DNA of 64,000 nt from Ethanoligenens harbinense YUAN-3 (GTDB taxonomy: Bacteria; Bacillota; Clostridia; Oscillospirales; Ethanoligenentaceae), in contig NC_014828.1 of the NCBI RefSeq assembly GCF_000178115.2, forward strand, positions 1,829,310 to 1,893,309, written 5' to 3'. Position 1 is the stretch's first letter. Each line of letters starts with the position of its first letter. Below the pieces are notes generated by a model that was given only the letters and a program-made list of their open reading frames with translations, was not told the DNA's origin and did no database searches. A program made the position numbers and the translations under genes. Positions 4,833-42,135 of this stretch are shown one piece after another.

Positions 4833-6054
4833 ATGGAAGGAGCAAACCGGATGGATATCCGAAGCGACCGGCAAAAAGGACTGAGCTACACAGAGATAGC
4901 GCGCAAGTACAACATTGACCCGAGGACGGCGAAGAAATACGCCGAGAGCGAGGCGCGACCGGTATACAGCCTGAGCGCAACGAAGCCGTCGAAGCTGGAC
5001 CCCTACAAGGAGCAGATAACGGTATGGCTGGAGGAAGCGCCGTACTCAGCGGAGCGGATACTGGAGAAAATTCAGGAGCAGGGCTTCGAGGGTGGGCACA
5101 GCATCGTGCGGGAATACGTGCGAAACAAGAAGGAACAGTTGGACGAGAAAGCAACGGTGCGGTTTGAAACGATGCCGGGACTTCAAGGGCAGATGGACTG
5201 GGCGTTTTTTGAGGATCACACCGTGCCGGAGGATGGGAAGCTGAAAAAGCTGTACTGTTTTCTGTTCATTTTGGGGTACTCGCGGACACGGTACATAGAG
5301 TTTGTGACCAACATGAGTACCAACACTCTGATCCGCTGCCATGCCAACGCGTTCCGGTATTTAGGCGGTTACCCGGAGGAAATTCTGTATGACAACATGA
5401 AGCAGGTCGTCATCAAACGGCTGCTGAAGCAGGAAGACAGTACCCTCAACCGGCAGTTTGAGGATTTCGCCGGATTCTATGGGTTCAAGCCATGTGCTGT
5501 GCCGGCCATACCGAGGCCAGACAAAGGGTAAAATAGAGCGCACGGTACAGTTCGTACGGGATAATTTCATGATTGGCATCAAGTACTCTTCACTTGACGA
5601 CCTCAATGGCCAGGCCCTCGCATGGTGTAATAAGGTCAATGGGAAAGTCCACGCCACAACAAATGAAATTCCCTTCGAGAGACTAAAAAAAGAGGGCCTT
5701 AACCCTCTTAAACGTGAATATATCATCGACAAAATCAATCTGCGCCGGGTACAAAAAGACTGCCTCATCTCGTACGGCGGTAATCAGTATTCCGTGCCAT
5801 CGGAATACGCCGGCGAAGATGTGGCAGTCGTAGCATTGGACAACGTGCTTGCTGTCTACTATGAAGGAAAGCAAATTGCCCTGCACCGAATATCCTACCA
5901 GAAAAAAGACATGGTCGTCAATGCCCATCATTATCGCAGGCTGACCGTCAAGCAATCCTTTGATACAGAAAACACCCTGCTGGACGGCGACAGTGTCATC
6001 GACCTTCCTATCCAACAACACGATTTGAACCGGTATGACGAGGTGCTGCTATGA
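4833..6054 (+). pseudogene. istA: IS21 transposase IstA, frameshifted
   Basis: The N-terminal part (4833-5531) has a helix-turn-helix (LSYTEIARKYNIDPRTAKKY) and a DDE integrase core with the first Asp in QMDWAFFED and the second in LYDNMKQ. The catalytic Glu (KGKIERTV) lies in the next frame, which continues to 6054. Removing one T at 5493 would join the frames and restore FKP-VLCRPYRGQTKGK, the family pattern. So a one-base insertion separates the catalytic triad, unless it is a sequencing error or a programmed shift. The stop overlaps the istB start (ATGA), as usual for the family. Confidence 0.85.
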
Positions 6055-8274: not shown

Positions 8275-9807
8275 TTATTCCCACTCAATGGTTGCAGGCG
8301 GCTTGCTGGTAATATCATATACCACACGATTGATACCTTTTACCTCATTGATGATGCGATTGGAGATGGTATCCAGCACTTCATACGGGATACGCGCCCA
8401 GTCTGCCGTCATAAAATCGCTGGTTGTCACACCACGCAGAGCCAATGTGTAGTCATAGGTACGCCCGTCGCCCATCACACCCACCGAGCGCATATCGGTC
8501 AGCACGGCAAAATACTGGTTGATGTCGCGCATCAGCCCCGCGTGGGCAATCTCATCGCGGAACACGGCATCCGCATCCCGCAGAACGTCCAGTTTTTCTT
8601 TTTTAATTTCGCCGATGATCCGAATGGCAAGGCCCGGTCCCGGGAATGGTTGCCTCCAGACCATATAATCCGGTAGGCCCAGTTCCAGACCCAGTGCGCG
8701 CACTTCATCCTTAAACAGTAAGCGCAGCGGCTCCACAATCTCTTTAAAACGGACATGCTCCGGCAAGCCGCCCACATTGTGATGGCTCTTGATAGTCGCC
8801 GCATCGCCAAGACCGGATTCGATAACATCCGGATAGATCGTTCCCTGCGCCAAAAAATCGACTGCGCCGATCTTATTGGCCTCATCCTCAAATACACGGA
8901 TGAATTCCTCACCGATGATCTTGCGTTTTCGTTCAGGGTCGCTTACGCCCTGCAATTTTTCCAAAAACCGTTCTGCAGCATCCACGCGGACAAACTGGAT
9001 ATCCCGTCCCTGAAATGCCTGATCGACTTCATCGCCCTCATTTTTGCGCATCAGGCCGTGGTCTACAAAAATACAGGTAAGCTGTCTGCCTACCGCGCGC
9101 GACAAAAGCGCCGCCGCCACCGCCGAATCCACACCTCCGGAAAGCGCGAGCAATACACGCCCATGTCCGATCTTTTCTTTTAATTCCGCCACGGTGGTTT
9201 TGGCGTAGTCCCCCATCGTCCAGTCGCCCACACATCCACAGACCTCAAACAGGAAATTCCGAATGATCTCCTGCCCCTTTTCGGTATGCAGCACTTCCGG
9301 ATGGAACTGCACACCATAGAACCGGAGGTGCGTGTTCTCAATGGCAGCCACAGGGCAGTTACGAGACTTGGCGATCACATGGAACCCTTCTGGTAATTGT
9401 TCCACATAATCGCCGTGGCTCATCCAGGTCGTAATGGTAGAGGCCAAGCCGTGAAACAACGGGCTGGCTGTATCAAGGTCGGTAGCCGTCCGGCCGTATT
9501 CCCGCCCACCGGCGGCGGCTACCCGTCCGCCAAGCGTCTGCACCAGCAAATGAATTCCGTAGCAAATGCCCAAAACCGGGACACCCAGCGTGAAAACGCC
9601 CGGGTCGCAGAGGGGCGCGCCCTCCGCATATACGCTGCTCGGCCCGCCCGTAAAAATGATCCCTGCCGGATGCAGCGCCCGAATCTCATCCAGCGGCAGA
9701 TCGTGTGGACGCACCTCACAATACACCCCGCATTCGCGCACGCGGCGTGCGATCAACTGATTATACTGCCCGCCAAAATCCAAAACCAGCACAAACTGAT
9801 GCTCCAT
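8275..9807 (-). CDS. guaA: GMP synthase (glutamine-hydrolysing)
   Basis: Converts XMP, glutamine and ATP to GMP, the last step of guanine nucleotide synthesis. The 510 residues have the full family layout: a class I amidotransferase with nucleophile in GICYGIH and FHPE histidine, an ATP pyrophosphatase loop SGGVDSAV, and a C-terminal dimerisation domain ending IEWE. ATG at 9807 is chosen because [15 protein letters not shown] fits the family N terminus and GGAGGG precedes it; the longer frame to 9888 is not supported. The 3' end faces the mobile-element remnant; guaA ends are known integration hotspots, but no duplicated attachment site was found. Confidence 0.97.
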
Positions 9808-22331: not shown

Positions 22332-22465
22332 GGCATACGCCCCTTTCATCTGCCGGGCCATACGCCCGTCTCCGTTCCCCTTTATTATACGTGTTTTTGC
22401 AAACGTTTTGCAAGTGCCAGGCCTCGACGGCGTGTATCAGCGTTTGCCCTTTTTCGCTCCATGCC

Positions 22466-22508
22466 AAAGCCCCCTGTTGCAGTTGTTTATCCTGCAACAG
22501 GGGGCTTG
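22466..22508 (-). terminator. Hairpin between the sulfur island and the metal transporter
   Basis: AAGCCCCCTGTTGCAG and CTGCAACAGGGGGCTT form a 16-bp stem about 90 bp after the last gene of the nitrogenase-like operon on the minus strand. The T run is weak, so the efficiency is uncertain. Confidence 0.6.
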
Positions 22509-22597: not shown

Positions 22598-22747
22598 TCA
22601 ACGCAAACGGACCTTTTCATTTTTCTCGATCTGTATGACTTTTCCATCCTGGATGATTACGGTGACGGAACCATACTGCACGCTTTGTATGTACTGCAAA
22701 AGCTGTTCGGCGATTTCCTCGCGTTCCCGGCTTGAAATATCCGACAT
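22598..22747 (-). CDS. YezD-family (DUF2292) small protein
   Basis: 49 residues, starting at ATG 22747 after AGGTGGG. The C-terminal half, QYGSVTVIIQDGKVIQIEKNEK, is the recognisable DUF2292 core: a short beta hairpin with a basic end. The function is unknown; family members are often found beside sulfur-assimilation genes, from memory and not checked. It is the last gene of the operon with the nitrogenase-like subunits and the NifX-like protein, 87 bp downstream of the latter. Confidence 0.8.
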   Translation of the reverse strand: MSDISSREREEIAEQLLQYIQSVQYGSVTVIIQDGKVIQIEKNEKVRLR

Positions 22748-22833: not shown

Positions 22834-23187
22834 TCAACACGTCTGGGACGATTTTTCCTGATTCAGCGGCAACACATCCGCGCGCAGTTTTTCCAGAACC
22901 GGCTCGATCAAATAGGGTGCTTCAAACACACGCAGGCCGGCCTGCAGAACATACTGTGCGGCCGCCGGGCCGATCTGGCTGACAAGCAGCGCGTCACAGT
23001 CCTTCAGCGCATGGGACAGATCGCGGAATTTTTCCGTGCTGTGCCCGTCCGACAGGAGCATGCTGCGTTTTTCCACAAGTTGTGCCGATTCTTTTGTCAG
23101 CTCATAGATATAAAACGTATGCGCCTGCCCGAAATGGAGATCGATCCGCTCTCCATCCGAGCTGGCCGCCGCCACACGAAACGCCAT
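22834..23187 (-). CDS. NifX/NafY-type dinitrogenase cofactor-binding domain protein
   Basis: 117 residues of the NifB/NifX C-terminal-like domain: FRVAAASSDGERIDLHFGQAHTFYIYEL at the start, then the CDALLVSQIGPAA region and the GLRVFEA strand. These proteins carry or chaperone the iron-molybdenum-type cofactor or its precursor, using HFG-type His and Cys residues. ATG at 23187 follows AAGGAGG. It sits 14 bp behind the nitrogenase-like beta gene, which supports a role in maturing that enzyme. NifB itself is not in the window. Confidence 0.85.
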   Translation of the reverse strand: MAFRVAAASSDGERIDLHFGQAHTFYIYELTKESAQLVEKRSMLLSDGHSTEKFRDLSHALKDCDALLVSQIGPAAAQYVLQAGLRVFEAPYLIEPVLEKLRADVLPLNQEKSSQTC

Positions 23188-23201
23188 GCAGGGCCTCCTT
23201 T

Positions 23202-24518
23202 TCAACGGTAGGTATTGAGCACCCGGTCGTAAATGTCCTCGATCGCCCGCAATCCCCCCCGATACCCGGCATAGCCGCAGTTGAGGATCAAACGGTACTG
23301 GACCGGCACGCTCAAAATGAGCAGATCGGCATGCAGGTCGCTGGCCAGGTCACGATCCCAGCCGCTGCCCAGAATCAGCGCACGGGAAGAGTTCCCATCC
23401 TGCCGGATCTCCCGGGAGATCCGGCCGCCGTCCGTTTCAAACACGACCTCCGCCGACCGCCGGTCGGAAAGATGCGCAAACTGCTCCTCAATCGCTTTGC
23501 GGTGGGCGGGTGGCGTGTCGTCGATGACATACTGCCTGGCGGGCAGAATGCCCAGCTCGTTGAGCAGATATTTGGAAAAACCGATCGCATAGGATGCGTC
23601 CAGAATCGAGTAAAACCGTCTGGGCAGCCCATAGCGGAACTCCAGGATGAAATCCGCCATCCGCTCGATGTGCGTGTAAAATTTGCGCTCCTCGTCGGCG
23701 ACAAATGCTTCTACCTGTTGTTTCGGCAGGCCGCCGAACGCGCCCGCAGCACGCAGGAACTCCGTGGACGCAATGCCGCCCACCGGCAGGTATGGAAAGT
23801 GGAGATACGGTGTGCCGACGGTTTCTTCCAGATGTTTGGCGACGCGCAGCCCCACCCATGCGCCCACGACGATATTGAACTGCGCATTGGGGATCTCCCG
23901 CCATTCGGACAGCCCCTCGGACTCCGGTCCGAACAGGATGTTGACGGTAAAGCCAATGCCCGTCAATATCCGCTTGAGCTCGGCCAGATTGCCCTGCCAG
24001 TAAGGGTCCTGATACGGCACGGTAGCAAATACATTGACCAGCCCCTGTTTCACCCCGCCGGGCGCGCGGTTGGGGATGGCATACTGGTCGATGATGGCGT
24101 TGACCACCACCTCATGGCTTACATAGTTGTTGCTCTTGAATCCGCCCGTCTCCGCGAACACAATGGGCAGGCCGCGTTTGCGGTAATCCTTGACCACGCT
24201 GCCCACATCGTCGCCCACGATGTCCGACGTGCACCCGGTCAGCACGACGAACAGGTCGGCGTCGATAACTTTGAACGCACCGTCCAGCACTTCGCGCAGG
24301 CGTGTTTCGCCGCCGAACACAACTTCCTTTTCGCTCGCGTTGGTGCAGGGAATGGTGCTGCCGCCCGCATAGCCTTCCCCCTGACCGATCAGCCGCTCGA
24401 TCTTGTTGGCGCAGCCGGGCCCGGAATGCAGCACCGGCACCGAACGGCGGATGGCCACGACGCTCTGCTGTGCGCCCAGCGCGCAGGAAAAACGCGGCTG
24501 TTCAATACTGCCGGACAT
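23202..24518 (-). CDS. Nitrogenase component 1-like protein, beta (NifK/NifN-like)
   Basis: 438 residues of the oxidoreductase/nitrogenase component 1 family. Cysteines expected for a P-cluster-like iron-sulfur centre are visible: FSCALGA (near 19), SGPGCANK (near 44) and LTGCTSDIVGDD (near 102). It lacks the long N-terminal extension of true NifK. ATG at 24518 with GGGAGGG overlaps the end of the alpha gene by 17 bp, so the two are coupled. It should form the alpha2beta2 complex with that gene and be fed electrons by a NifH-type protein encoded elsewhere. The neighbourhood is sulfur metabolism, not nitrogen fixation. Confidence 0.85.
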   Translation of the reverse strand: MSGSIEQPRFSCALGAQQSVVAIRRSVPVLHSGPGCANKIERLIGQGEGYAGGSTIPCTNASEKEVVFGGETRLREVLDGAFKVIDADLFVVLTGCTSDIVGDDVGSVVKDYRKRGLPIVFAETGGFKSNNYVSHEVVVNAIIDQYAIPNRAPGGVKQGLVNVFATVPYQDPYWQGNLAELKRILTGIGFTVNILFGPESEGLSEWREIPNAQFNIVVGAWVGLRVAKHLEETVGTPYLHFPYLPVGGIASTEFLRAAGAFGGLPKQQVEAFVADEERKFYTHIERMADFILEFRYGLPRRFYSILDASYAIGFSKYLLNELGILPARQYVIDDTPPAHRKAIEEQFAHLSDRRSAEVVFETDGGRISREIRQDGNSSRALILGSGWDRDLASDLHADLLILSVPVQYRLILNCGYAGYRGGLRAIEDIYDRVLNTYR

Positions 24519-25983
24519 GCAATTCCCTCCCCAAAAACGCATACGGTTGCTGCTTCAGCCACCATTTTGTATATGGCATGGTGCTGTGCCTGGCCAGATT
24601 GGTGACAAATTCGGTGTTATCCAGTGTTTCGGCAATGCGCCGGGCATAATGCAGGATGCCGTCGTAACCGAAGCTGAACTGTTCGTCCCCGATGAGCAGC
24701 GTGGGGATGCCCAGCTTGGCGCCCCAAACCGTCATGCCGCCGTGCCGGGCAATCATGATGTCCGGCCGCATGCGGTTAAGCAGGTTGACCAACTCGAACG
24801 CCTGCTTGTTGCAGATGTTGTACTGCCGGACATCGCCGTAGGTCTCCACATCATGCGCCAGCACATCCGACGTGGGGCAGCCGTTGTCATAGACCGGGTC
24901 GTGGTGAAAGATGGCCGCGCCTTTTACATCCAGCCCCAGCTCACGCAGCACAGCGATGAGGGAATGCCCGTGTGCCGCGCCCGCCGTCAGGTAGGCAGTC
25001 TTGCCGGCGAATTGTTTGCGGTATGCCTCGATCTGCGGCAGGACACGTTCGTGTCCGTCACGGATCAGTTGTTCCACTTCTTGTTCCCGATGCAGAACCT
25101 TACCGAGTTCCCGCAGCCAGATGTCCGTCCCGGCCATGCCATAGGCTGGCGGCACCTTGATCTCCGGCACCCCGTACACCTGCTCCAGCGCCGCGCCCAA
25201 ATAGGTGCCCAGCGTGGGGCAGATCTGGATGGTGGCGACCGCTTCCGAAATATATTCCAGATCTTTGACCGTGTTGAACGGCACGATATACTGCGCTTCA
25301 TACCCCAGCCTGCTCAGGAGATCATCAAAAATATGGCTGCCCCAGAAATTGATGATATTGACCTTTTTGGATCGTTTACGCGGTGGCTTGACCAGCCGGC
25401 GGACGATGGCGTGGTAGGCCGAATCGAACCCGCTGGTCCAGATACGGGAACGAAAACCCTCGCAGAAACAGGAAATAACCGGAATGCCCAGGTCCTCGCT
25501 CAAATGGTCGGCAACACTCTCCACGTCGTCGCCGATAATGCCCGACGCGCAGGAGGTCGTGATAAAGATGGCATTGGGGTGTTCGCGCTCAAAAGCGGTG
25601 CGTACGGTATCGCGCAGCTTCTGCATCCCGCCGAAAACCGTATCCTTCTCCAGTAGGTTGGTGCTGTAATACTTGCCGATGGCGGACGGCAGGCCCCGGT
25701 TCTTCTGCTCCACGCGATAGACGAAATTAAAGCCGCTGGCATCCCCCAGGCACCCAATCGGCGCATGGTTGACCACCACCGCATCGGTAATCATGGAAAG
25801 CATGCAGAAAGCCTGCCCGGAACTGCACCCCATGCATTGGCTGAAGCTGCGGGCAGAATCCTTGAGCGTGCCCGCCTGCGCGCGGCTGACCAGCTCGCTG
25901 GCCTTGCCCTGGTAGGCCGTGATGGAACCGAGCCGCAGTTCCCGGATTTGGACAGTGGGCAGATCCAGATTGACTTTACTCAT
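24502..25983 (-). CDS. Nitrogenase component 1-like protein, alpha (NifD/NifE-like)
   Basis: 493 residues. P-cluster-type cysteines lie in SQCMGCSSG (near 50), APIGCLGD (near 76) and TTSCASGIIGDD (near 145). CEGFRSRIW (near 173) has the conserved CEGFR motif of the family, and RHGGMTVWGAKLGIP may supply the His ligand to an active-site cofactor. True NifD features needed for N2 reduction are not assured, and the gene stands with beta, NifX-like and YezD genes but no nifH, nifB or nifEN set. Neighbours are MccA-, MetY- and MetNIQ-like genes, so a nitrogenase-like reductase for organosulfur compounds, as with methylthio-alkane reductase, is the preferred inference. Confidence 0.85.
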   Translation of the reverse strand: MSKVNLDLPTVQIRELRLGSITAYQGKASELVSRAQAGTLKDSARSFSQCMGCSSGQAFCMLSMITDAVVVNHAPIGCLGDASGFNFVYRVEQKNRGLPSAIGKYYSTNLLEKDTVFGGMQKLRDTVRTAFEREHPNAIFITTSCASGIIGDDVESVADHLSEDLGIPVISCFCEGFRSRIWTSGFDSAYHAIVRRLVKPPRKRSKKVNIINFWGSHIFDDLLSRLGYEAQYIVPFNTVKDLEYISEAVATIQICPTLGTYLGAALEQVYGVPEIKVPPAYGMAGTDIWLRELGKVLHREQEVEQLIRDGHERVLPQIEAYRKQFAGKTAYLTAGAAHGHSLIAVLRELGLDVKGAAIFHHDPVYDNGCPTSDVLAHDVETYGDVRQYNICNKQAFELVNLLNRMRPDIMIARHGGMTVWGAKLGIPTLLIGDEQFSFGYDGILHYARRIAETLDNTEFVTNLARHSTMPYTKWWLKQQPYAFLGRELHVRQY

Positions 25984-26057: not shown

Positions 26058-26091
26058 AAAACAAAAAGGCCGCATCCCAGACGACGCAGCC
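26058..26091 (-). terminator. Leader terminator (attenuator) upstream of the nitrogenase-like operon
   Basis: On the minus strand GGCTGCGTC (26091-26083) pairs over all nine positions with GATGCGGCC (26076-26068), with two G-T pairs, and is followed directly by TTTTTGTTTT. It lies inside the predicted leader, 75 bp before the alpha-subunit ATG, so readthrough is needed for expression. Its 5' arm overlaps the conserved 21-nt element at 26088-26108. Confidence 0.75.
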
Positions 26092-26108
26092 TCCGGTATT
26101 CCGGTCAG
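26088..26108 (-). promoter_or_regulatory. Conserved 21-nt leader element, copy 1 (nitrogenase-like operon)
   Basis: The minus strand contains GACCGGAATACCGGAGGC within the 21-nt block. It can fold as CCGG-AATA-CCGG, or be read as codons for T-G-I-P-E-A. Copies occur in the metQ leader (36936-36956) and, with compensating changes, in the metY leader (27644-27664). Confidence 0.6.
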
Positions 26109-26129
26109 ATGCATTAATATAACTATTAT

Positions 26130-26177
26130 TATTATATTTATAATATATAGTGTACGCCAACCATTTCCGATTGTCAA
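26130..26177 (-). promoter_or_regulatory. Promoter and AT-rich operator of the nitrogenase-like operon
   Basis: Minus-strand TTGACA (26177-26172), a 17-bp spacer and TACACT (26154-26149). Immediately downstream, over the predicted start site, lies TATTATA-TT-TATAATA (26130-26145), a perfect inverted repeat. A repressor bound there would block initiation. The predicted leader is about 158 nt. Confidence 0.65.
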
Positions 26178-27485: not shown

Positions 27486-27556
27486 ATTAAAGGTAGGGTG
27501 CATCTTTTGCGTACAGATCGTGCTTGGTGGTTGTGCTGCAAACAAGGAGCCGTGCG

Positions 27557-27643
27557 ATGTATGACCCTTTGCTTCGGTTTCGGCGGGGCACATGCATGCG
27601 TGTGCGCTCCCTGTTCAGAAAAAATTACGTATTTTTAAGGTGA
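27557..27643 (+). CDS. Upstream mini-ORF in the metY leader
   Basis: A 28-codon frame beginning MYDPLLRFRRGTC, with AAGGAG seven bases before its ATG, a better ribosome site than many genes here. It is very basic (eight Arg) and has one Cys and three Met. It stops with TGA exactly where the conserved 21-nt element begins (27644), in the same frame. Such placement suggests a leader peptide whose translation affects the RNA that follows. It is not recognised as a known family. Confidence 0.45.
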   Translation: MYDPLLRFRRGTCMRVRSLFRKNYVFLR

Positions 27644-27711
27644 CCGACTGGACAACCAGAGGCCCTGTGACAAACCGGCTGCCCACAACCGCAGGTTGTG
27701 GAAAGGAAAGG
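27644..27711 (+). promoter_or_regulatory. Structured metY leader with conserved element, copy 3
   Basis: CTGG-ACAA-CCAG-AGGC (27648-27663) forms a hairpin where copies 1 and 2 have CCGG/CCGG, so one stem pair changed on both sides. A second hairpin, CCACAACC-GCA-GGTTGTGG, follows near 27683-27701, just before the metY ribosome site (AAAGGGG). GGCCCTGTGA recalls part of the SAM-I core, but the other conserved SAM-I blocks are absent. Confidence 0.5.
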
Positions 27712-36935: not shown

Positions 36936-36956
36936 AGCCTCCGGTTTTCCGGTCAG
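36936..36956 (-). promoter_or_regulatory. Conserved 21-nt leader element, copy 2 (metQ operon)
   Basis: The minus strand has GACCGGAAAACCGGAGGC, differing from copy 1 by one loop base. It lies 77 bp before the metQ start and can fold as CCGG-AAAA-CCGG or be read as T-G-K-P-E-A. A weaker hairpin (CTATAT-CCT-ATATGG) follows, without a T run. Confidence 0.6.
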
Positions 36957-37090
36957 CAGCAAACCGTCTTATATGGAGCAGATTATCTGAAAATCTATGT
37001 TTAGAAACGCGGATGGGTGGGAGACATCCCGTTTTAATAGTGTATATTGCAAAACACCGTTGTGGAGAAGTGCGCCATTACATCGTTTCA

Positions 37091-37157
37091 TATTAATTAT
37101 AATAAAACATGTATGTTTTGTTATAATTAATATACCCCATCACCCATGAAATGTCAA
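37091..37157 (-). promoter_or_regulatory. metQ promoter with 42-bp palindromic operator
   Basis: Minus-strand TTGACA (37157-37152), spacer 17, TATATT (37134-37129). The arms TATTAATTATAATAAAACAT (37091-37110) and 37113-37132 are complementary at 19 of 20 positions. The palindrome starts inside the -10 box and covers the start site, so a dimeric or tetrameric repressor would shut this promoter. It is the largest and most perfect of the four AT-rich operators. Confidence 0.75.
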
Positions 37158-41740: not shown

Positions 41741-42135
41741 ACGCGGAGACCGCAAAATCGCCTGGAAATTCACCAACCCGCTTGATGTGCCAGAAACAAC
41801 CCTTTCGTCTGCTGCAATCCGTTTCTCAAAGCATGCCGCGATCTTGCGTCATATTGCACTTGCTTTTCACCAGATTACGGATTACAGACGGTTTTTCCGG
41901 GTTTTTTCGGCTTTTTGCATGAAGACCTTTGCGTTTTGCGTGACGGACGACGTCTCCCGTATTTTTCAGCATGCCGATCCATATCCGTCCATTTTCGTTT
42001 CATAACAAAGCCCCCTGCCGTAGTTGATGATCCTACGGCGGGGGGCTTTTTCACCATATTCGTTTAAAAGGAAATCGTTCCGTACCGGCAGGGCCTTTTT
42101 AAACGGAAATGCCCGTCTTACCGGCAAAGCACGGA
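41741..42135. other. Intergenic region with terminator
   Basis: Nothing gene-like is supported up to 42005, although a 72-codon frame (41787-42005) without a ribosome site exists. The rest holds the terminator at 42007-42051. Confidence 0.4.
42007..42051. terminator. Strong terminator
   Basis: AAAGCCCCCTGCCGTAG and CTACGGCGGGGGGCTTT form a stem with one mismatch followed by TT. It lies between convergent genes and can serve both. Confidence 0.85.

Follow-up and report, generated by a model that had tools for sequence, protein, structure and literature searches.

A covarying hairpin that overlaps the terminator in leaders of nitrogenase-like and other sulfur-acquisition genes, and its candidate partner YezD

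Does the short conserved element in the leader of the nitrogenase-like (NFL) genes of Ethanoligenens harbinense YUAN-3 decide whether transcription proceeds into them and, if so, which factor acts on it? The question was addressed in a window of 64,000 nucleotides (NC_014828.1, positions 1,829,310 to 1,893,309), taken from a genome of one contig of 3,008,576 bp, and in the related loci and genomes of a sequence collection.

The leader of the nitrogenase-like genes

The 21-nt element CTGACCGGAATACCGGAGGCT lies at 26108-26088 (-) ahead of NFL alpha. On the minus strand, the order from 5' to 3' is a promoter-like sequence, the element, a terminator, its T-run and the start of NFL alpha at 25983. 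The features of this leader are listed below, P1 and P2 being the lower and upper helix of the antiterminator.

26149..26177 (-): promoter-like TTGACA-N17-TACACT from a consensus scan, candidate promoter
26107..26113 (-): 5' strand of P1, UGCAUCU, from the fold of the truncated leader and the covariation of P1 in 150 copies
26105..26106 (-): conserved GA of the asymmetric internal loop, facing A26092 (UGA/AGG in 116/150 copies, UGA/AGA in 13/150)
26093..26104 (-): P2 hairpin CCGG-AAUA-CCGG, with double-sided changes in 4/4 pairs
26085..26091 (-): 3' strand of P1, which doubles as terminator 5' arm (the overlap), from both folds and P1 covariation
26058..26092 (-): intrinsic terminator, from sequence, fold of the full leader and covariation
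24502..25983 (-): NFL component 1 (NFL alpha), the target gene (PF00148, E 2e-80)

The element hairpin CUGA-CCGG-AAUA-CCGG-AGGC (26108-26089, minus strand) continues directly into the terminator, in which 26092-26083 pairs with 26076-26067 around a loop of 6 nt, followed by the T-run TTTTTGTTTT at 26067-26058 (-). The AGGC end of the element is used by both the hairpin and the terminator, A26092 and GGC 26091-26089 being common to the two. The overlap announced by a first-pass annotation of this DNA is thus present. The same annotation gave a leader of 158 nt, which is consistent with the promoter-like sequence at 26177-26149, and a terminator of 9 bp, which measures 10 bp.

The whole leader (MFE -26.7 kcal/mol, z -3.46) folds as P2 plus terminator. 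When the leader is cut before the 3' arm of the terminator, the fold obtained is P1 plus P2, with one U.C mismatch in the P1 of this copy. The 3' strand of P1 is also the 5' arm of the terminator, and antiterminator and terminator therefore exclude each other. These two folds, together with the covariation of P1 in 150 copies, bear out the earlier proposal that folding of the element can decide whether the terminator forms. No cis-regulatory family or riboswitch of Rfam matched here at the gathering score, and relaxed thresholds gave weak matches with nothing relevant among them.

The element pattern occurs twice exactly in the window, and eight times with up to three mismatches where 0.78 occurrences are expected. 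Two further sites deserve mention.

36936..36956 (-): second element copy CTGACCGGAAAACCGGAGGCT, before metQ, with an intact hairpin and without a clear terminator
27641..27663 (+): degenerate sequence GTGACCGACTGGACAACCAGAGGC, possibly a third copy, with a CTGG/CCAG stem, before O-acetylhomoserine sulfhydrylase; no terminator

In the genome of the window, the covariance model R1 described below scores the NFL leader at 48.7 bits and the metQ copy at 25.3 bits; a third weak match, behind a tRNA gene, is probably due to chance, and the degenerate copy at 27641..27663 (+) was not picked up. AT-rich inverted repeats are present in both promoters: that of metQ (37090-37133, 21 bp, 95% complementary) lies at the -10 region and looks like a repressor operator, and the NFL promoter carries a similar AT-rich sequence.

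Comparative structure, copy number and regulon

A search of the collection with NFL alpha yielded 80 loci. The hairpin-AGGC-terminator layout was found upstream of many NFL genes, in Clostridium acidisoli, C. akagii, C. algoriphilum, Sporomusa, Pelosinus, Propionispira, Pelotomaculum, Paenibacillaceae and soil MAGs, and a scripted scan for hairpin plus terminator in the related loci returned 31 occurrences in the real sequence and 2 in the reversed one. The model R1, built from 16 aligned copies, gave 66 matches in 40 of the NFL loci. The consensus consists of P1 [R]CU/GG[Y], the conserved GA/A internal loop, P2 YYRG/CYRR and an A-rich loop, which measures 4-5 nt in 125/150 copies (4 nt in 57, 5 nt in 68, 6 nt in 7).

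In P2 plus terminator, 96% of the cells are paired and 12 of 15 pairs show a double-sided change, partly by construction because the scan demanded a hairpin and a terminator. P1 was required by neither the scan nor R1. Its key positions are paired in 150/150, 145/150 and 111/150 copies, the numbers expected under independence being 139, 131 and 83, and the swaps CG>UA, GC>AU and AU>GC were seen. Column pair 5-40 is CG in 122 copies, UG in 14 and UA in 13, and never unpaired; pair 4-41 is GC (129), AU (10) or UA (2), and pair 3-42 is AU (53), GC (34), GU (13) or UA (8). The copy beside yezD in genome G155 is a complete form with six P1 pairs (UAUAUU-GA-CCAG-AAAA-CUGG-A-GAUAUA), and the folds are exclusive there too. 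These alignments strongly support a predicted architecture in which antiterminator and terminator are two mutually exclusive, covarying structures. Tandem copies, each with its own terminator, precede a single gene in loci L031, L048 (Sporomusa), L032 and L044.

Whole-genome counts were made with R1 at E <=0.01, a threshold that is approximate given the short calibration and its rough E-values. They amount to 51 copies in Sporomusa silvacetica, 38 in Pelosinus propionicus, 35 in the soil MAG CTSoil_075, 19 in Heliobacterium mobile, 18 in Heliophilum and 14 in Propionispira, mostly before NFL, sulfonate, cysteine and methionine genes. The genes downstream code for NFL alpha/beta (D/K), NifH-like (H) and NifB-like radical SAM proteins, MetN-type and cystine-type ABC proteins, TauC/SsuC permeases, NlpA and other binding proteins, cysteine synthase (cysK), O-acetylhomoserine sulfhydrylase, URO-D/MtaA-like, DUF2325 and DUF1847 proteins, YezD, MetK and the cysH operon. 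In G155 and G174, surface-type proteins with no obvious sulfur role lie downstream of an element. Elsewhere, NFL enzymes of this kind take part in sulfur acquisition, from isethionate (PMC11423573) or as methylthio-alkane reductase (PMC12552129). The sulfur connection expected from the first reading is found, the downstream genes being mostly sulfur-related. The "classic attenuation layout" that it proposed holds for the exclusive structures and not for a one-off attenuator: the element is a multi-copy regulon element ahead of sulfur-acquisition genes, with up to dozens of copies per genome, and it co-occurs with YezD.

YezD as the candidate factor

The other genes of the NFL cluster in the window are the following.

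23202..24542 (-): NFL beta subunit (PF00148, E 2.3e-55)
22834..23205 (-): NifX-like protein (PF02579)
22598..22747 (-): yezD (DUF2292), 49 aa, proposed RNA-binding factor (PF10055, E 1e-17)

The window YezD scores 63.9 bits against PF10055, above the Pfam cut-off of 22, and its gene, a single copy in this genome, stands in the same cluster as the NFL genes. Of 14 genomes checked, 13 have YezD; the remaining one (Faecalispora, G126) has NFL and no genuine element. Among 293 genomes of the class, 22 had a model match, 26 had YezD and 15 had both (Fisher p 2e-13, raw). When the 22 matches were inspected against the consensus, by eye and with the YezD status known, 16 were retained as genuine, and YezD was then present in 15/16 element genomes versus 11/277 others (p 2e-17). 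The matches rejected in the YezD-negative genomes G172, G231, G280, G313 and, for the most part, G246 are plain terminators without the hairpin; G202 has a strong element in a genome without a YezD match. A relaxed search was run in the YezD-positive genomes and in one YezD-negative genome (G126). In the 11 YezD-positive genomes without a model match, it revealed a match 4-52 nt behind yezD in G155, G174, G224, G322 and G386, and genuine elements elsewhere in G147, G151 and G321. The presence of NFL was considered as a correlate as well: it is associated with the element, more weakly than YezD, and in the discordant genomes the element tracks YezD, since the four genomes with NFL and no YezD all lack it and 8 of the 11 with YezD and no NFL have it.

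The position of yezD speaks for this linkage. In 16/27 genomes, yezD has an element on its own strand no more than 200 nt away, usually directly 3' of the gene, and often yezD is immediately upstream of an element with a gap of 1-76 nt. The order is element-yezD-element in Pelosinus and Propionispira. In Cytobacillus, yezD is followed by the cysH operon, and the element situated between the two overlaps the stop codon of yezD. An S-box-like leader was noticed by eye upstream of the Cytobacillus yezD. In Acetobacterium and in the window, yezD stands apart from the elements, and its action would therefore need to be in trans. No element adjoins the yezD genes of Priestia plasmids, or follows the DUF2292 gene of a Novosphingobium plasmid on its 3' side.

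The window protein reaches 26.7 bits against the OscA equivalog NF033785, below the curated cut-off of 85; the YezD family is a relative of OscA, a protein of sulfur starvation whose gene shares a transcript with sbp in Pseudomonas (PMC3596284, PMC2996968). In the literature searched, no RNA-binding role was found for YezD or OscA. The AlphaFold model of the single domain combines a helix with a beta-hairpin (pLDDT 83). The YezD of Negativicutes is a tandem double domain, modelled as two such units, which would fit a dimeric binder. Structure matches of the single and tandem models gave best Z values of 3.1 and 4.3, with Foldseek E >0.2 and no informative relative, and a PDB sequence search with YezD found no relative. 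The tandem proteins (L147, L158, L172, L175, L187, L224, L226) have a conserved C-terminal tail in common, ..G(L/V/M)(Y/D/N)G(D/E)GI.

What computation shows is a pair of exclusive structures that covary, a regulon and a linkage with YezD. The co-occurrence with YezD and its place in the same gene cluster suggest a protein-dependent antitermination. It is fairly probable, in our judgement, that the element switches a sulfur-acquisition regulon by an antitermination that depends on a protein, the RNA-binding factor being most likely YezD. An antiterminator made of P1, the GA/A internal loop, P2 and the A-rich loop would be able to form first during transcription of the leader. By default, the terminator, composed of the P1 3' strand and the downstream GCC, would displace P1 and stop transcription before the NFL genes. 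When sulfur conditions are inducing, the antiterminator would be stabilised by a protein, most likely YezD (DUF2292, OscA-like), that recognises both the internal and the A-rich loop, and readthrough would follow. We infer that YezD would bind the element RNA, that its binding antiterminates rather than terminates and that the signal is sulfur limitation. We lean slightly towards a broader reading, in which YezD/OscA (DUF2292) would be the founding member of an unrecognised class of RNA-binding antiterminators, with the hairpin as recognition site and about 50 sites per genome at most, including NFL, in several Firmicutes classes. If so, widespread DUF2292 and its sulfur-starvation relative OscA would gain a function, the nitrogenase-like C-S reductases of Firmicutes a regulatory logic, and the known antitermination systems one more member, made of a ~50-aa protein and a ~30-nt hairpin.

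Alternative explanations and related systems

Against the YezD-dependent switch, it must be said that the evidence is all comparative and that YezD could be a passenger in a sulfur regulon; moreover, G202 has an element without YezD, P1 carries its mismatch in the NFL-leader copy and the metQ copy has no clear terminator. The same RNA could then serve another trans-factor, either an RNA-binding protein that has escaped recognition or a small ligand of the ~30-nt hairpin, YezD being a mere member of the regulon. This is unlikely, but far from negligible: YezD is an uncharacterised protein (DUF2292) among sulfur genes, and in a published table (PMC3862929) B. subtilis yezD changes together with ssu, tcyJKLMN and yitJ, which is what one expects of a regulon member. 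On the other hand, in discordant genomes the element follows YezD rather than NFL, yezD adjoins elements in many genomes, and the element is very small for a metabolite aptamer. A BglG-type protein was excluded as universal factor, the CAT RNA-binding domain (CAT_RBD, PF03123) being missing in 24 of the 33 genomes examined, nearly all of them element-bearing. It is very improbable that YezD on the element promotes termination instead. Its autoregulatory placement leaves the sign open and YezD could hold a terminator-compatible form; however, the covarying alternative to the terminator is P1 plus P2 with conserved unpaired bases, which suggests that this is the recognised form. In the E. coli bgl operon the regulator gene is flanked by antiterminator elements, and the element-yezD-element order, which recalls it, would also speak against a repressor.

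Attenuation by translation of a leader peptide over the element, through cysteine or other codons, can hardly be the explanation. An ORF starting at ATG 26113 does cover the element in the window and extends as far as the start codon of NFL alpha, but only 2/149 copies lie within an ORF, in any frame, that has a start and an SD-like sequence, and the translational half of the original proposal finds no support. Because the loop varies in length (4, 5, 6, 7, 8, 9), the frame is broken, and the stems covary as RNA. In the closest relative (G003, 72% identity; L023 1328-1480), the NFL leader has no CUGA element and contains a Cys-rich ORF, MKTAGTMTKACIKCMCSVPVW, then a terminator; it counts for a leader peptide, counts against the YezD-dependent switch, and is possibly a ribosome-dependent cysteine attenuator of the NFL gene. 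With the element replaced in this leader, the attenuation of NFL appears rewired; G003 still has elements before an NFL paralogue and a NifH-like gene. In the literature searched, no precedent was found for either a cysteine attenuator or an antiterminator acting on NFL genes. A DNA operator beside an ordinary terminator is equally remote: the CCGG-armed hairpin is near-palindromic in the NFL-leader copy and both promoters carry AT-rich inverted repeats, whereas 49/51 distinct model matches (NFL-oriented loci, E <=1e-4) are on the sense strand, the loop is asymmetric, the pairs covary with G-U included, and the register to the terminator is fixed.

The proposed YezD-dependent switch resembles the BglG/SacY/LicT systems and their RAT in its short hairpin with an asymmetric internal loop, which overlaps the 5' arm of an intrinsic terminator and excludes it, in its many targets, in the regulator gene flanked by element copies and in the small, dimer-sized RNA-binding module proposed. 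It differs in the hairpin sequence, in serving sulfur rather than sugars, in a YezD without PRD or other sensor domain, and in the frequent absence of the cognate CAT domain. ANTAR antiterminators consist of two tandem hairpins with hexanucleotide loops. With the ANTAR systems (EutV, NasR) the element shares its overlap with the terminator and, putatively, the protein dependence, but it has one hairpin with a shorter, A-rich loop. Like the S-box (SAM-I) and T-box, it would attenuate transcription of sulfur genes in the same organisms; unlike them, it has no Rfam match, spans ~30 nt and has no aptamer upstream. As for the protein, the window YezD belongs with DUF2292 (PF10055) and stays under the OscA equivalog cut-off. 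An unnamed attenuator of bacilli, described as a terminator cluster before a sulfonate ABC operon and a gene of unknown function (Naville and Gautheret 2010, PMC2965389), may be an earlier sighting of the element; that text devotes one sentence to it, with no structure, regulon or protein link.

Further regulatory sequences were noticed. In Clostridium algoriphilum (L036), a SAM-I riboswitch at 5660-5761 lies ahead of the element that precedes an NFL gene, which puts two sulfur switches one after the other, and a second SAM-I at 8908-9009 precedes another element at 9246. In the window, two Cys-rich short ORFs were seen by eye, one at ~27490-27640 (+), before O-acetylhomoserine sulfhydrylase, containing WWLCCKQGAVRCMTLCFGFGGAHACVCAPC, and one at ~27300-27220 (-), before cysteine synthase, MQEPHMWFYPRKAYADDLGCNCSL; both are possible cysteine leader peptides. 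Finally, the hairpins at 22448-22507 and 41989-42048, with arms AAGCCCCCTG/CAGGGGGCTT, are 77% alike in unrelated places and are probably a repeated terminator.
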